Shown here one piece after another: positions 1 through 7,563 of a DNA stretch of 64,000 nt (position 1 is its first letter; each line of letters begins with the position of its first letter). This DNA comes from Acidobacteria bacterium Ga0077551 (GTDB lineage: Bacteria > Pseudomonadota > Alphaproteobacteria > Caulobacterales > Hyphomonadaceae). Location of the stretch: NCBI GenBank assembly GCA_001464545.1, contig LNFC01000009.1, positions 1 to 64,000 of the forward strand, given 5' to 3'. Below the pieces are notes generated by a model. It saw only the letters and a list, made by a program, of their open reading frames with translations. It had not been told where the DNA came from and did not search any database. The position numbers were made by a program, and so were the translations under genes.

Positions 1-654
1 ATCACCGAGGCGTTCGCCGGAACAGACGATGTCACGCTTGCCGAAGTCATGGGCACCGTGCTCGCGGCGACCGTCTTCCTCTGGATGGGCGTGTTCGGCC
101 CCGGCATGGCTTCGGGCCTGATCACCGGCGCCCCGCAGCTGGGCGCGGGCTCGGCTATTGGCGCGGCGGCAGGTGTCGCGGCCGGAACGGTCGCCGCAGG
201 TCTCGGTGCCAGGGGCGCGCTGGGCGCCGCCGCAGGCGGCGCGGCAAGCGCCGTCAAAGCTGGCGCCTCGATGGCGGGCGGCGCCCGCACGGCGTTCGAT
301 CTTGGATCAACCGCTTCCGGAAAGTCCGACGCTGCTGGCTTTGCCGCTGGAATTGGCGGCGTCGCCCAGGCGGCTGGGGACACGGTGCGCCGCGCGGCCT
401 CCGGCCCAGCCAGCGCTGTGCGCGATGCTTACCGGCGCGGCGCCCGCGGCACGTTCGAAAGCACCGGCGGCTCAAGCTCATCCACTGCCGAGAGCCCATC
501 CGCCTCATCGCCCGAGAAGAGCCCTGGCTGGGCGCGCGGCATGCGCGCCTCCCAAAGGCTCGGCGAAGCCCGCCAGCTCGCCATGCACAGCCTGCGCGAC
601 GGCGATCGCGGCTCTTCGGGCGCCGCCCCCTCTCTGAAAGACAAGGACGAGTAA
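1..654 (+). CDS. trbL: Conjugal transfer protein TrbL, C-terminal part (5' truncated by window edge)
   Basis: Frame is open from base 1; Gly/Ala-rich hydrophobic segment then a Ser/Pro-rich tail typical of TrbL C-termini; directly followed by trbF, trbG and trbI. Confidence 0.85.
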   Translation: MTEAFAGTDDVTLAEVMGTVLAATVFLWMGVFGPGMASGLITGAPQLGAGSAIGAAAGVAAGTVAAGLGARGALGAAAGGAASAVKAGASMAGGARTAFDLGSTASGKSDAAGFAAGIGGVAQAAGDTVRRAASGPASAVRDAYRRGARGTFESTGGSSSSTAESPSASSPEKSPGWARGMRASQRLGEARQLAMHSLRDGDRGSSGAAPSLKDKDE

Positions 655-658
655 CCCC

Positions 659-1357
659 ATGCGCTTCAAACGCCCAACCGCTCACTATGGCACGTCGCCC
701 TATCCCGAGACGCCCTACCAGAAAGCCGGACAGGTCTGGGATGAGCGCATTGGCTCGGCCCGGGTCCAGGCGAAGAACTGGCGGCTGATGGCACTCGGGT
801 GCCTTACGCTCTCGTTCGCCACATCCGGCGCGCTGATCTGGCGGAGCCTGCAGTCGACGGTGACGCCCTATGTCGTCGAAGTTGACGAGACCGGCGCGGC
901 GAAGGCCATCGGGCCAGCCACCGAGACCTACACGCCGTCTGACGCGCAGATCGCGCATCATCTCGCCGGGTTCATCACCTTTGTGCGCAGCCTGTCGATC
1001 GATCCGGTGGTTGTCCGGGGGAACTGGCTCAAAGCCTACACCTTCGCCGGACCGGCAGCCGCCACCACGCTCTCAGAGTATGCCCGCGAGAATGATCCGT
1101 TTGCGGCGATCGGCCGGCGCTCACGCACGGTCGATGTCGTCAGCATCGTCCGTGTCAGCGAAGAAAGCTTCCAGGGCCGCTGGATCGAGAAAACCTATGA
1201 GGGCGGCGCGCTCACCGGCGCGAAGCGGTTCACGGGTGTTTTCACGATCACGGTCCAGCCGCCGAAAGATGCCGAGACCCTGCGCGCCAACCCCCTCGGC
1301 CTTTATGTCCGCTCGCTCAGCTGGAGCGAAGACCTTGTCACAGGAGAAAGACAATGA
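659..1357 (+). CDS. trbF: Conjugal transfer protein TrbF (VirB8-like)
   Basis: MRFKRP..HYG.SPYPETPYQKAGQVWDERIGSARVQAKNWR start typical of TrbF; gene order. Confidence 0.93.
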   Translation: MRFKRPTAHYGTSPYPETPYQKAGQVWDERIGSARVQAKNWRLMALGCLTLSFATSGALIWRSLQSTVTPYVVEVDETGAAKAIGPATETYTPSDAQIAHHLAGFITFVRSLSIDPVVVRGNWLKAYTFAGPAAATTLSEYARENDPFAAIGRRSRTVDVVSIVRVSEESFQGRWIEKTYEGGALTGAKRFTGVFTITVQPPKDAETLRANPLGLYVRSLSWSEDLVTGERQ

Positions 1358-2349
1358 CCCGGTTCCTGCTTGCCTCATCGGCTACCGCCCTGCTCGCGGC
1401 CTGCGCCACGCCGCTGCCACCAGAGCCGGTCATCGATACCGGCACCTTTATCGCGGCTATCCCACTGGCAGAGCCAAAGCCCGAACGAGTGGAGATTGTC
1501 GAAACGGCCATCGCGCTTCCCCTGCCAGGCCAGCTCAAGCCTCTTGACCCAGAGCCCGGCAAGAAAAGTCCGCAAACACCTGCAGCCGCCATCAAGGAAG
1601 GCCGCGCCGGCGCGGTGGTCGAGCCCTCCTCCGACGGCTTCGTCAATGCCGTCCAGATCTATCCTTATACGGAAGGTGCGCTCTACCGCCTCTATGCCAG
1701 CCCAGGCCAGGTCACGGATGTTGCGCTTCAGCCGGGAGAAAGCCTCGTGTCGGTCTCGGCGGGGGACACGGTGCGCTGGGTCGTCGGGGACACCGCGTCC
1801 GGTTCCGGCAGCGCGGCCCGTGCGCATATCCTGGTCAAGCCTGTTGCGACGGGCCTGCGCACCAACCTGATGATCGCGACCGACCGACGGACCTATCACC
1901 TCGAACTGGAATCGACCGCATCGACGTACATGGCAGCGCTCTCCTGGCGCTATCCGCAGGATGAGCTGGCGGGCCTCACGGCCCGCAACACGAGCGCTGC
2001 CGCAGAGGACGCCGTCTCGATCGAACGCGGCCTCAGCCTCGAGACCCTGAACTTCGACTACCGCGTCACGGGCGATACGCCGGACTGGAAACCCGTCCGT
2101 GTGTTCGATGACGGGCGCCAGGTGTTCATCCAGATGCCGGCAGCAATTTCTGCTTCCGAGATGCCGCCGCTCTTTGTCCTGTCATCCGAAGGAGAGGCCG
2201 AACTCGTCAACTACCGGGTCCGCGGGGCCTACTACATCGTCGACCGGCTGTTTGGCGCCGCCGAGCTGCGCCACGGGACAAGGCCCCAGACAGTCGTGCG
2301 GATTTCGAAAGTAAGCGCGGCGCAGAAGTCCCGCTGGTTCGGAGGTTGA
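1354..2349 (+). CDS. trbG: P-type conjugative transfer protein TrbG (VirB9-like)
   Basis: Lipoprotein-like N-terminus, VirB9-like body, 4-bp overlap with trbF. Confidence 0.92.
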   Translation: MTRFLLASSATALLAACATPLPPEPVIDTGTFIAAIPLAEPKPERVEIVETAIALPLPGQLKPLDPEPGKKSPQTPAAAIKEGRAGAVVEPSSDGFVNAVQIYPYTEGALYRLYASPGQVTDVALQPGESLVSVSAGDTVRWVVGDTASGSGSAARAHILVKPVATGLRTNLMIATDRRTYHLELESTASTYMAALSWRYPQDELAGLTARNTSAAAEDAVSIERGLSLETLNFDYRVTGDTPDWKPVRVFDDGRQVFIQMPAAISASEMPPLFVLSSEGEAELVNYRVRGAYYIVDRLFGAAELRHGTRPQTVVRISKVSAAQKSRWFGG

Positions 2350-2353
2350 GCCG

Positions 2354-3598
2354 ATGACCGAACCTCCCCCATTCAAGGAAGCAGCAAAGCAACTGCAGAT
2401 CCGCTCGGCGCCGAAGCCCGCCACACGGATCAACCGCAAACTCCTGATGGCCGGTGCAGGCCTCGGCGCGCTTGGCCTCTTTGCGGCAACCTCGATTGCG
2501 CTCGCGCCGCCGCGTCCTGCAAAGCCGGTCCAGCAGGAAGAGCTGGTCATGGCCGGCAAACGCAAGCCCGACGGGTTCTCGGCGCTACCGGCAGACTATA
2601 CGGCGCTTGCGGATGTGCCGGTGCTAGGGGCGCCGCTCTCCGGCGATCTCGGCTCGACCATTCTCGCCGCCGAGCAGGCTTACGGCATCGAAACAGAGTT
2701 CCAGACCGAGTACCGCACGGATTTTCGCACGCGTCCGGAAGACGAAGCTGTCCGCACCGCGCGGCTTGAAGCCGCTGCTCAAGCTGAAGAGGCTGCCCGC
2801 GCGCCACTCCTGTTCCGCCTTGGCGGGGCCGGTGCGCCGCCAACTTCAGCGCAGCCTACTCCGGAGCCTGGTTTCGACCTGTCTTCGCAGCTCCTCGCTC
2901 TCACACGGCAATCCCCGAACGCCGCATCAAGCAACGAGCCAGACCCGAACCTCCAGTCTCGCAAGGCCGCGTTTTCCCGTGAGCCGGCCTCAAGCCCGGT
3001 CTACAATCCGGACCGGGTGCAGGACCCGCTTTCGCCATACCAGCTGATGGCAGGCTCTCTGATCCCGGCGAGCCTTGTCACCGGCATCAACTCGGACCTT
3101 CCCGGCACGGTGATCGCGCAGGTCACGCAGAACGTCTACGACACCGTGCGCGGCCAGCACCTCCTGATCCCGCAGGGCAGCCGCCTGATCGGCCGCTATC
3201 AGTCGGAGGTCTCGTTCGGCCAGGACCGCGCACTCGTCGTCTGGGACCGGATCCTGATGCCCGATGGCAGCTCGATCACGATTTCTGAGCCGGGGAGCGA
3301 CGCCTCCGGCTACGCCGGCCTGAAAGACAGGACCGATCAACATTGGGATAAGGTGTTCGCGGCCGCCGGTCTCGCGACCCTGCTCGGCATCGGCGCTGAA
3401 CTCGGGCCAGGCGACGACGGCGACATCGAACGTGCGATCCGTCGCGGAACAACCGACACGATCAACGAAGCGGGCCAGCGGGCCGTTGATCGAAGCCTCA
3501 GCGTCCAGCCTTCGATCACCATCCGTCCCGGCTGGCCAGTCCGTGTCATCGTCACCAAGGATCTCGTCCTTCGCCCCTTTCAGGAGGCGGCCCCATGA
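2354..3598 (+). CDS. trbI: Conjugal transfer protein TrbI (VirB10-like)
   Basis: Single TM segment, Pro-rich region, C-terminal VirB10 signature (LIPQGSRLIGRYQSEVSFGQDRALVVWDRILMPDG). Confidence 0.95.
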   Translation: MTEPPPFKEAAKQLQIRSAPKPATRINRKLLMAGAGLGALGLFAATSIALAPPRPAKPVQQEELVMAGKRKPDGFSALPADYTALADVPVLGAPLSGDLGSTILAAEQAYGIETEFQTEYRTDFRTRPEDEAVRTARLEAAAQAEEAARAPLLFRLGGAGAPPTSAQPTPEPGFDLSSQLLALTRQSPNAASSNEPDPNLQSRKAAFSREPASSPVYNPDRVQDPLSPYQLMAGSLIPASLVTGINSDLPGTVIAQVTQNVYDTVRGQHLLIPQGSRLIGRYQSEVSFGQDRALVVWDRILMPDGSSITISEPGSDASGYAGLKDRTDQHWDKVFAAAGLATLLGIGAELGPGDDGDIERAIRRGTTDTINEAGQRAVDRSLSVQPSITIRPGWPVRVIVTKDLVLRPFQEAAP

Positions 3599-3831
3599 AC
3601 CTCCGCCTTGCAAAACTCGCCGACCGCACGCCGGTGAGGCTCACCCTCGCACTTGATCCGGAGACAGCGGCCGCGCTGCAAGATTATGCCGCAGTCTACC
3701 AAGAAGCTTATGGCGAAGCAGAGCGTAGCGAAACGCTCGCCGCCGCCATGATCGAGATGTTCCTGGCGTCAGATGCCGGGTTCAGACGGGCCCGGAAGGC
3801 CCTGCCCACCAATGCCAGCAAAGGAGACTGA
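3595..3831 (+). CDS. DUF2274 family protein
   Basis: Short ORF overlapping the trbI stop by 4 bp; usual position and sequence style of DUF2274 downstream of trbI. Confidence 0.8.
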   Translation: MNLRLAKLADRTPVRLTLALDPETAAALQDYAAVYQEAYGEAERSETLAAAMIEMFLASDAGFRRARKALPTNASKGD

Positions 3832-3834
3832 CCC

Positions 3835-4149
3835 ATGGCACAGATCGGCGCATTTACCCTGAAGGACGGAGCCTGGACCGGGACCATCCGTACCATGACC
3901 ATCAACGTGAAGGCACAGCTTGTCCCCAACAGGGAAAAGGGAAAGAGCAAGGACACGCCTGATTTCCGGCTATACGCCGGCGGCGCAGAGCTCGGCGCCG
4001 CCTGGCGTCAGGACTCGAAGGATGGCGAAACCCCATACCTCGCCGTAAAATTCGATGATCCGAGCTTTGCCCAGCCGATGCGCGCAGCCTTCTTCGAAAA
4101 CGAAAAGGAAGGCACCGGCGTCCTCGTTTGGAACCGTCCGAAACAATAG
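3835..4149 (+). CDS. DUF736 family protein
   Basis: MAQIGAFTLKDGAWTGTIRTMTINVKAQLVPN... characteristic DUF736 sequence common in ICEs/plasmids. Confidence 0.9.
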   Translation: MAQIGAFTLKDGAWTGTIRTMTINVKAQLVPNREKGKSKDTPDFRLYAGGAELGAAWRQDSKDGETPYLAVKFDDPSFAQPMRAAFFENEKEGTGVLVWNRPKQ

Positions 4150-4699: not shown

Positions 4700-5509
4700 T
4701 TACCATCCGTTTCTGCGCTCCGCGAGGTCGATCAGACGGGTCCTGACAGGTACTATCAGGACCATGACACTCCGTCCGGCGGGCTCATCGCTCGCTCCAG
4801 CGCGCACTGCGTGCGCGAAGATCTCCTCTTCTTGGAGGTCATTGCCATTGAAATAGGTGCTGGCAGGCACGCGGCGCGTGTCGCGCGCTTCAGTGCACCG
4901 CTCGAACAGGAGACCCAGTACGTCCGAGTCCGCGCCAACTTCCTTGGCAGGGACCAGGGTCGAGGGCCAGTTCCTGGATTTCCGGTACCAGATCCGGCCC
5001 TTTGGGCCGTAGCAAATCAGGATTGAATAGAGTGGATCGGTGTCAACGAAACGAAGCGCTGTCGCTGTACGACTGGTTCGGAATTCAGCCGCAAGCTCGC
5101 CGATCGAACGAAATGATGGTCGATCATACGATTTAACCCTGGGCTCGAACATATATCTCGGCATGAGCAGTCCGGCAGAATAACTATCGGCCTGCCGCTC
5201 TTTCCCTGAGCCGGTATCCCGGGTCGAGCCAATCACGTCTTTCGAGCAATGCAGGTTCTGGTTCTTGTGGCATTGCCAGTGGCCAATTTCATGTCCGAGC
5301 GAGAAGCGCGCGCGTTCGGGCCCGCCCCGATCATCAATTGTGATGATCGCCCTGTCGCGGATGCCCATGATCTGCGCTTCGCACCCGTCCAGAGGACGGT
5401 ACCGGACCCTCGCCTTCAGCAGCCAGGCCAACGCCTCCAGATCAATCTGCTCGGGCGAGGTAATGCCGTAGCGTTGCATAAGGAGTTCAGGACGCAGAAA
5501 GACCGTCAC
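4700..5509 (-). CDS. ImmA/IrrE family metallo-endopeptidase
   Basis: RARFSLGHEIGHWQCHK (HExxH zinc motif) in an ImmA/IrrE-like context; overlaps upstream gene by 4 bp. Confidence 0.88.
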   Translation of the reverse strand: MTVFLRPELLMQRYGITSPEQIDLEALAWLLKARVRYRPLDGCEAQIMGIRDRAIITIDDRGGPERARFSLGHEIGHWQCHKNQNLHCSKDVIGSTRDTGSGKERQADSYSAGLLMPRYMFEPRVKSYDRPSFRSIGELAAEFRTSRTATALRFVDTDPLYSILICYGPKGRIWYRKSRNWPSTLVPAKEVGADSDVLGLLFERCTEARDTRRVPASTYFNGNDLQEEEIFAHAVRAGASDEPAGRSVMVLIVPVRTRLIDLAERRNGW

Positions 5510-5940
5510 TTTTCGCTTTCATCGCCCAAGTCTATATTGAGCTCCTCAAGCAGCTCCAAAACATCTTCAAGCTGCGCCAGGGCATCCCTGTCCGAGAGCT
5601 CCGACCCGTCCGCATTTCTGGCCGCGATCGTCAGTTCGCTCAGTTCTGATTGGACCCGGTGCAGGAATGCACGCGCCTCGTCTGGGGCTTGAGGCCGGCT
5701 ACGAGCCTCTCGCTTTCGTCGATCTTCCAGGAACTCAACCCTGGCTTTCCTGAACTCAACAAAGCCTGCCCGCCCTTTCGCCGCAATCAAGGCACGCTCA
5801 AACACGGATAGGCCATCGCCAGACTTGAAACCGAGAGATTCCAGTTCTTGTTGAACCTCCGCATTGGTCATGCCGACAATGTCGTCGAGCACAGCGTCGT
5901 CCAGACGGTCGAGCTCGTCGCGCTTTTTAGATTCGGTCAT
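5506..5940 (-). CDS. Hypothetical protein, predicted helical (small middle gene of sigma/ImmA operon)
   Basis: Acidic/charged 144-aa ORF, 4-bp ATGA overlaps with both neighbours; no family recognised. Confidence 0.7.
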   Translation of the reverse strand: MTESKKRDELDRLDDAVLDDIVGMTNAEVQQELESLGFKSGDGLSVFERALIAAKGRAGFVEFRKARVEFLEDRRKREARSRPQAPDEARAFLHRVQSELSELTIAARNADGSELSDRDALAQLEDVLELLEELNIDLGDESEK

Positions 5941-6509
5941 GATCCTCTCCGACCTTCGAATTCACTTATCTTGCGGCGAATCCTTCGCCTGATGGTGGCG
6001 AGCTGGTCCTTTGAGACACCTGTCTGCACGCAAAGCTCTTCACCTGACAGCCCTTCAAACACGCCCAGCAAAACCAGCTGGGTCTCGTCATCGTCGAATT
6101 GCTCATACAACCAGGCATGAAATGCCGCGTCATGCTCGTCCCGGCAGATAGTGTCTTCAACACCCGCCCGGCCATCGCTAACCGTATCGGCGAACAAGCC
6201 GAGATCCGCCGGCGTCTCAGCATACCCTGCGTCTTCACGGCGGGCGCGCTTTCGCACTTCTGAACTTGCAATACTCTTCATGACACCGCCAAGAAAAGCG
6301 ACAATGTCAACATCCGGAGGCCTCTGGCGATCTCCACAAAGCACTCTTGTCAGGGCCTCCTGCAGGAGATCCTCAGGGCTGAGACGCGCACGCGCCGCAA
6401 AGTACCTCGAAATTAGGAGCAGGCGGTCACCCTGATGGCGACTGACCTCCTCAATCTCGTCTTTGCAGTCTTCTGCGGACCGCTTTCGTGCAGCGTCAGC
6501 GGCGCTCAT
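5937..6509 (-). CDS. Sigma-70/ECF-like RNA polymerase sigma factor
   Basis: Region 2-like LSPEDLLQEALTRVL and a C-terminal region 4-like HTH (LSGEELCVQTGVSKDQLATIRRRIRRKI). Start set at 6509 because of a GGAG about 7 nt upstream; the track ORF begins at 6575. Confidence 0.72.
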   Translation of the reverse strand: MSAADAARKRSAEDCKDEIEEVSRHQGDRLLLISRYFAARARLSPEDLLQEALTRVLCGDRQRPPDVDIVAFLGGVMKSIASSEVRKRARREDAGYAETPADLGLFADTVSDGRAGVEDTICRDEHDAAFHAWLYEQFDDDETQLVLLGVFEGLSGEELCVQTGVSKDQLATIRRRIRRKISEFEGRRGS

Positions 6510-6541: not shown

Positions 6542-6565
6542 CATCTATGCGCGCCGCAACCCTGC

Positions 6566-6594
6566 ATTCGGACAACTTTGAAAACTGTCCGAAT
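6566..6594. promoter_or_regulatory. 29-bp palindromic site ATTCGGACA-N11-TGTCCGAAT (candidate operator)
   Basis: Perfect 9-bp inverted repeat with 11-nt spacer, between the divergent sigma-like gene and the ubiquitin-like operon. Confidence 0.6.
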
Positions 6595-6663
6595 TCAGCC
6601 GTGCGGCGAGCCTTTGTTTACGTGGGCACTGACGTTGCCCGGTGCAACAAAGGAAATCCAATC

Positions 6664-7563
6664 ATGACCTCCCAGAACCCTGAATATTTCGACCTGGAAA
6701 CGGCTGCTCGCTGCGGCCAGCCGGTGACGGCCGACCGCTACTTCAAGATCCGCATCGACGACCGGTCCTATAATGTGGACGATCCCAAACTGACCGGAAG
6801 CCAGCTCCTGAGGCTCAGCGGCAAACGGCCGATCGACGAACATCTTGTCTTTCTGAAGCTTGCCAATGGTGGGTTCGAGGAAATTCGCCTCGATGAAACC
6901 GTTGACCTGACACAGCCCGGCGTTGAGCGGTTCTTGACGTTCGACAGCAGCGCTTCCTATCGCTTGGTCATCGATGGTGAGCGCATCGAATGGGGCGCTC
7001 AGCTGATTACGGGCCTCAAGCTGAAGCAAATCGCCGGGGTTGACCCTGACAAATATGCACTCTGGCGTGAAGTGCGCGGAAGCGAAGATATTGAACTGGC
7101 GAATGAAGACATCATTGATCTCAGTGAACCTGGGCTCGAGCGCTTCTTCACGGTCATTGCCCAAACCACTGCCGGAGACGCAGGCCCCGCCCTTCCCCAA
7201 GCCGATCAGCGCTATCTTTCCGAACAGGGCTACCGGTACGAGCTCGCACACGAAGCGGGACAAACGGCAATCATCCTCAAGGCCGTCGACCTCCCGAAGG
7301 GGCGCTATGATGTGGAACTGGCTGACATTCTGATCATGCTTCCGCCCGGCTATCCGGATGCCCCTCCTGACATGTTCTATTGTCTGCCCTGGCTTCGGCT
7401 TGTCGCACGCGGCGCCTACCCCAATTGCGCTGATGTTCCGCTCTCCTTTCAGGGGCAGACCTGGCAAAGGTGGTCGCGCCATAACAATGAATGGCGCGCT
7501 GGCAAGGACGGCATCTGGACCATGCTGAAGCGCGTTGAACATGCACTGGCGGAGGCGGCCTAA
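6664..7563 (+). CDS. Multiubiquitin-domain protein fused to a bacterial E2/UBC-like domain (Ubl-Ubl-E2)
   Basis: Two tandem Ubl repeats (YFKIRIDDRSYNV...VDLTQPGVERFLTF and YRLVIDGERIEW...IDLSEPGLERFFTV), then a Prok-E2_E-like domain (LPPGYPDAPPDMFYCLPWL...TWQRWSRHNNEWRAGKDGIWTMLKRVEHAL). Start at 6664 after AAGGAAA; the track start 6463 is upstream. Confidence 0.88.
   Translation: MTSQNPEYFDLETAARCGQPVTADRYFKIRIDDRSYNVDDPKLTGSQLLRLSGKRPIDEHLVFLKLANGGFEEIRLDETVDLTQPGVERFLTFDSSASYRLVIDGERIEWGAQLITGLKLKQIAGVDPDKYALWREVRGSEDIELANEDIIDLSEPGLERFFTVIAQTTAGDAGPALPQADQRYLSEQGYRYELAHEAGQTAIILKAVDLPKGRYDVELADILIMLPPGYPDAPPDMFYCLPWLRLVARGAYPNCADVPLSFQGQTWQRWSRHNNEWRAGKDGIWTMLKRVEHALAEAA

Follow-up and report, generated by a model that had tools for sequence, protein, structure and literature searches.

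Immune operons that can kill their host must stay off until they are needed. The three Cap controllers named for such operons all repress (PMC13373217). In CapH+CapP, the protease CapP is activated by ssDNA and cuts the helix-turn-helix (HTH) repressor CapH (PMC13373217, PMC10904395), its output being derepression. CapK+CapS (a STAS/kinase pair) and CapW/BrxR (with a WYL domain) are modular, DNA-damage-responsive repressors without a sigma factor, found beside bacterial ubiquitination-like (Bub), CBASS and other operons; of the Bub class, which counts 544 loci, some are under CapW, CapH+CapP or CapK+CapS (PMC13373217). In PprI/IrrE-DdrO and ImmA-ImmR, a metallopeptidase likewise acts on a transcription regulator upon DNA damage, the target being an HTH repressor. 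In the Calp system of type III CRISPR, which senses cA4 by a SAVED-Lon protease and works without CapP, CalpL cleaves the anti-sigma factor CalpT, by which the sigma factor CalpS is freed (PMC12751052). RseA-SigE and RsiW-SigW pair an ECF sigma factor with a Class I anti-sigma factor.

The locus described here lies in a 64,000-nucleotide stretch of DNA (the window) and combines genes for an ECF sigma factor, a new helical protein (the middle protein) and a CapP-type protease, together called the triad. Of the known systems, CapH+CapP is nearest to it through the descent of one component, CapP: both have a CapP-family ImmA/IrrE-like protease encoded next to immune operons, Bub and CBASS among them, and the ssDNA trigger and the cleavage of the neighboring gene's product are presumed for the triad as well. 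The triad differs in having the HTH repressor replaced by an ECF sigma factor plus the helical middle protein, in CapPs that are separate from the CapH-type CapPs sampled, and in its output, which would be activation from dedicated promoters rather than derepression. The closest mechanistic precedent is CalpL-CalpT-CalpS, also composed of a protease, a linking protein and a sigma factor for immune transcription; the triad, however, is not a CRISPR accessory, and assignment of the window module to Calp was rejected, as its protease is of the Peptidase_M78/CapP type and not SAVED-Lon. Like CapK+CapS and CapW/BrxR, the triad is modular, has Bub, CBASS and other operons as neighbors and would respond to DNA damage; unlike them, it has a sigma factor. 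Compared with PprI/IrrE-DdrO and ImmA-ImmR, the target of the metallopeptidase would be a sigma/anti-sigma pair. With RseA-SigE and RsiW-SigW the triad shares the order of an ECF sigma factor followed by a presumed anti-sigma factor, and an autoregulated promoter, but it carries a soluble metalloprotease in the operon, and its middle protein is without a recognized membrane anchor or anti-sigma domain. No description of a controller made of a sigma factor and CapP was found in the open-licence papers searched, and an earlier mention elsewhere is possible.

Layout of the locus and the circuit it may encode

The sigma, middle and protease genes form one overlapping minus-strand operon (4700-6509), divergent from a Bub-type operon (6664-9326). 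They encode an ECF-like sigma factor of 190 aa (5937-6509, ATG start at 6509), an acidic, all-helical middle protein of 144 aa that represents a new family (5506-5940) and a CapP-family zinc metalloprotease (4700-5509, GTG start). The initial annotation had all three genes joined by 4-nt ATGA overlaps; both junctions do overlap, but ATGA is found at the sigma/middle junction only (5937-5940), and at the middle/protease junction (5506-5509) the overlap is GTGA, GTG being the start codon of the protease gene. The distance of about 150 bp that had been noted to the ubiquitin-like operon is borne out by a gap of 154 bp to the ATG of that operon (6664). The ATG at 6509 is most likely the start of the sigma gene, since the ORF of a close relative (L020/L023) starts at the matching codon and since the TTG at 6575, the start given by the ORF tool, sits upstream of the triad promoter. 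The assembly is that of a Hyphomonas-type alphaproteobacterium, and near-identical DNA is present in a named Hyphomonas record.

From its domains, the three-gene plus-strand operon at 6664-9326 is taken to be a Bub operon. Its first gene (6664-7563) encodes a fusion of two Multi_ubiq domains with Prok-E2_E (Pfam E = 1e-38 and 3e-48), the second (7563-8951) JAB and ThiF/E1 (Pfam E = 2e-40 for ThiF and 3e-4, under the cutoff, for Prok-JAB) and the third (8955-9326) DUF6527 (Pfam E = 4e-17). The Ubl, E2, E1, JAB and DUF6527 components of a Bub operon are all found in the window, JAB by a weak Pfam match.

We propose that in the resting cell the middle protein would keep the ECF sigma factor inactive. 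Damage or phage attack would cause ssDNA to build up and CapP to be activated, as is known for CapP-CapH, and active CapP would then cut the middle protein. The released sigma factor would guide RNA polymerase to two back-to-back promoters, of which the triad promoter would provide positive feedback and the other, in a step that the sequence strongly supports, would drive the adjoining immune operon, here Bub. Such a controller would activate, unlike the repressors CapH, CapW and CapS. We regard it as fairly probable that the triad is an immune controller complete in itself and portable, with this full circuit of anti-sigma factor, CapP and two promoters.

The middle protein and the CapP-type protease

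The middle protein is kept between the sigma factor and CapP in 62 aligned homologues, which share a C-terminal motif (LT-AAR-G-LSD-D-L-DL-ELG) with an invariant R108; the family is all-helical, with a mean pI of 4.9. It had no Pfam family above cutoff and no PDB sequence or fold match, no anti-sigma domain was detected in it by sequence or fold (Pfam, PDB), and no membrane anchor was recognized. Its predicted structure was only moderately confident (pLDDT, 78; pTM, 0.41). By analogy with CapP-CapH and CalpL-CalpT-CalpS, we infer as the best reading that the middle protein is an anti-sigma factor and is cut by CapP once ssDNA triggers the protease, and we propose it in both roles, that of anti-sigma factor and that of CapP substrate. 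The same circuit could run without an anti-sigma factor in the middle position, CapP or a middle-CapP complex holding the sigma factor, or CapP processing it, with the middle protein as an adaptor or sensor. This would fit with the lack of anti-sigma fold matches, and the tight linkage of all three genes makes a three-way complex possible. We consider it unlikely, as CapP relatives cut a transcription regulator encoded by their partner gene (CapH; DdrO in the case of PprI [PMC10904395]) and the middle gene lies directly before capP, the position of CapH in CapH-type loci.

The protease had been described as an ImmA/IrrE protease. Pfam assigns it to Peptidase_M78; it is not a generic ImmA/IrrE enzyme and is of the CapP type. 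It matched the PADLOC capP model (E = 2.3e-48, over 8-236), and the profile of its family (57 homologues) matched solved CapP (7t5t; E = 2e-20, residues 86-277) ahead of IrrE (2e-10). Among the 57 homologues, H73, E74, H77, E104 and C88 are invariant. The aligned counterpart of C88 in 7t5t is the cysteine in the sequence FQCSD, which we take to be the one proposed as the gate of the zinc site. Features by which CapP proteins are recognized, namely, the match to the CapP profile and to solved CapP, HExxH, a third zinc ligand and the cysteine, are thus all found in the window protease. To call the triad a damage-responsive switch, as had been suggested from the outset, is well grounded by analogy because known CapP members are activated by ssDNA (PMC13373217, PMC10904395). 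A circuit as proposed with a different signal, in which CapP senses something such as a metabolite or phage protein, or in which the promoters merely coexpress the triad and the operon, would be in keeping with the low similarity of the window protease alone to solved CapP (single-sequence E = 2e-5, limited to the catalytic region). We hold such a signal to be distinctly improbable, given that the alignment of the family profile with CapP extends through the C-terminal domain (86-277) and that the cysteine lining up with that of solved CapP does not vary.

CapH, the XRE-type repressor gene, is absent beside capP in the window, where the sigma and middle genes are found instead, and the window module was for this lack of CapH rejected as a member of CapH+CapP. 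For comparison, the PADLOC capP model was run on 349 genomes of the phylum, and the 26 other top loci were taken. The sigma and middle HMMs gave no match in these 26 loci; the upstream genes inspected were XRE-type and CapH-like, and one locus (L129) was a truncated orphan capP. In a CapP tree of 60 sequences, CapH-type and sigma-type CapPs were split by one branch (support, 100/99). On these sequences, a single origin of the swap of CapH for the sigma and middle genes is likely, with limited sampling of intermediates.

The sigma factor and its paired promoters

The sigma protein is a divergent ECF sigma factor. It matched the TIGR02937 sigma70-ECF model with an E value of 1e-8 (under the model cutoff), and the profile of 42 homologues matched ECF SigH structures across both regions (E = 4e-6). 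The top fold matches of its predicted structure (pLDDT, 88) were ECF sigma factors with weak E values (0.03 to 0.2), possibly as a result of relative movement of the two modeled domains. Regions 2 and 4 of ECF sigma factors were found by profile, model and fold matches, and a cognate two-block promoter was found both for its own gene and for the target operon. A formal ECF group may already include the triad sigma factor.

In the window, the putative triad promoter on the minus strand consists of a −35 element TGTCCG (6569-6574; PWM score, 23.9) and a −10 element CGCGCATA (6546-6553), and that of the Bub operon on the plus strand consists of a −35 element TGTCCG (6586-6591; PWM score, 21.1) and a −10 element CGAGCCTT (6607-6614). 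When all sites on both strands were scored with the PWM, they ranked first and third, respectively, in the 64-kb window. The two mirror-image promoters give rise to a 31-nt imperfect inverted repeat (6549-6611) with arms that are 77% complementary. A promoter-like match on the plus strand, antisense within the middle gene (5589-5616; score, 21.8), was rejected as a real promoter; it is probably due to chance, such a site being present in 1 of 61 homologues.

Intergenic regions of many triad loci contain TCGGACA...TGTCCGA with a spacer of 1 to 33 nt, and at a fixed distance of 14 to 15 nt past the TGTCCG hexamer there is a second block of 8 nt ending in GCATA or GCCTA, on the sigma side as well as on the operon side. 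The resulting signature is that of two back-to-back ECF-type promoters, each with a −35 element TGTCCGA, 14 to 15 nt and a −10 block ending in GCMTA. A variation of 1 to 33 nt between the two −35 elements is expected of two promoters and not of one dimer operator, and an operator of this kind at the palindrome was rejected because the spacer varies and the second blocks lie at a fixed distance. The half-sites do make an inverted repeat and the other Cap controllers are repressors (PMC13373217), so that the sigma-like protein might be imagined as a dimeric repressor or activator on TCGGACA-TGTCCGA that is removed by CapP in the manner of CapH; with each half-site tied to the second block of its own side, and with a protein that matches ECF sigma factors over regions 2 and 4, this is highly improbable.

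The relation between the two promoters was assessed in 36 nonredundant loci. A −10 matrix derived from either side selected offset 21 on the opposite one in 22 of the 36 loci, versus a mean of 0.8 to 0.9 and a maximum of 5 in 500 shuffles. Within a locus, the two −10 elements were alike beyond all permutations (z = 9.1; 0/10,000), and the −35 flanks were also alike (permutation test, z = 6.2). Base composition accounts for only part of this likeness, because the region between the promoters showed a weaker likeness (z = 3.5) and the downstream control none (z = −0.8). In 11 held-out loci outside the training set, with sigma identities of ≤60% to that set, the sigma side was above the 5% threshold in 10 and the operon side in 9. 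One or both recognizable promoters are missing in some loci (e.g., L036, L087 and L102), and in one exception, L146, an IS element lies within the intergenic region. Pattern searches of the assembly (3.08 Mb, 25 contigs) returned 29 matches, or 11 with the strict pattern, and are by themselves too unspecific to name a wider regulon.

At the sequence level, the evidence is strong that both promoters are read by a single sigma factor. Since the two sides predict each other, the held-out loci agree and the promoters covary, the sigma factor very probably activates its own triad and the immune operon. The earlier proposal that the sigma factor drives the ubiquitin-like operon thereby gains strong support at the sequence level, with matching ECF promoters that face both ways and covary.

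Distribution and changing partners of the triad

In a CapP-only search that covered 85,462 species, with one genome per species, the best 80 loci were taken, on which HMMs for the sigma, middle and CapP proteins were run. The genes for sigma, middle and CapP proteins were found in that order in 74 of these best 80 loci, with overlapping genes at the triad junctions in 71/74 and 70/74; this arrangement is not due to chance. Loci without a full triad were at contig ends (L032 and L072) or had upstream genes that were truncated or missing (L034, L048, L085 and L093). Hosts include Alpha-, Beta- and Gammaproteobacteria, Geobacteraceae and relatives, a Spirochaetes MAG and an Acidobacteria MAG, and further cases are on plasmid records, including plasmid pDE of the laboratory strain Cereibacter sphaeroides 2.4.1, on which the triad (L143) adjoins a nucleotidyltransferase/SAVED CBASS-type operon and the sigma factor is annotated as hypothetical. 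In Hyphomonas atlantica (G120/L015, 8497-10908), DNA similarity ends at the start of the sigma gene, to which a channel-like gene is now adjacent, and neither promoter nor any Multi_ubiq gene is left. This triad is considered a relict because of the end of similarity at the sigma start and the loss of promoters and Multi_ubiq genes, and its use as an orphan was rejected.

Among 61 nonredundant triad loci, the divergent neighbor was Bub in 21, CBASS in 12 (PADLOC cyclases and phospholipases; Pfam SAVED), another E1-based operon in 6 (including a 6A-MBL-like set of MBL, E2-E1-JAB and patatin) and patatin in 2; other neighbors (13 loci) comprised Qat A/B/C, OLD/Gaj-like nuclease, GmrSD-type, type I methyltransferase and DUF2188-led sets, and 7 loci were given no class. 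With three classes (Bub, CBASS and the rest), at least 17 changes of neighbor class were counted on the CapP tree. From this exchange of neighbors, the triad is to be read as a portable controller and not as a Bub component. The six genes therefore do not form a fixed unit; the triad is also present beside CBASS, Qat and other operons. Its suspected tie to the ubiquitin-like operon is thereby half refuted, triad and operon each being found without the other, yet promoter coupling persists at most triad sites. A Bub operon without the triad is present at L136, where a like operon has another controller, an XRE-type CapH+CapP pair.

Small DUF2188 and other tiny proteins are frequently encoded by the first or early genes of the operon that the triad promoter pair serves (L036, L074, L077, L096, L097, L150, L156 and others). 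A protein of about 92 to 100 aa recurs between the sigma gene and the immune operon (L016, 9047-9325; L066, 3390-3692; L031, L037, L040, L043 and L051); it is SinR/Cas2-like by eye, with no Pfam matches.

The window locus is situated at one end of an ICE, with conjugation-type genes at 1-4149 and, at 9631-9657, a 27-bp att copy (tRNA-Pro 3' end) as one ICE end; on a separate contig (C15; L179, 3152-4802), the tRNA-Pro gene is intact and has a tyrosine-type integrase beside it, and the element spans contig breaks across which it is not closed. ImmR/ImmA controls ICE functions in ICEBs1. Control of mobile-element functions (ICE excision, conjugation) by the triad, with the immune operons as passengers, would suit this location and that of many triad loci on plasmids, but it is highly improbable, as the promoter pair points to the immune operon and persists while the operon type changes, and as none of the 11 places with the strict pattern in the 3.1-Mb assembly, in which contig breaks leave gaps, is in the genes at 1-4149.

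On balance, we lean towards a fourth portable family of DNA-damage immunity controllers, one that would work by activation: ssDNA-triggered CapP would destroy a new class of anti-sigma factor, and the ECF sigma factor would then fire itself and unrelated immune operons from mirror-image promoters. These data suggest that the triad is a previously undescribed means of switching on bacterial immunity, with DNA damage as the probable occasion. With its positive feedback, a controller built on a sigma factor would make the immune response sharper and closer to all or none, and it would show the same immune modules under a different control logic. The promoter signature (TGTCCGA, 14 to 15 nt and a −10 block ending in GCMTA) could be used to find unrecognized defense operons, and the family of the 144-aa middle protein gains a testable role.
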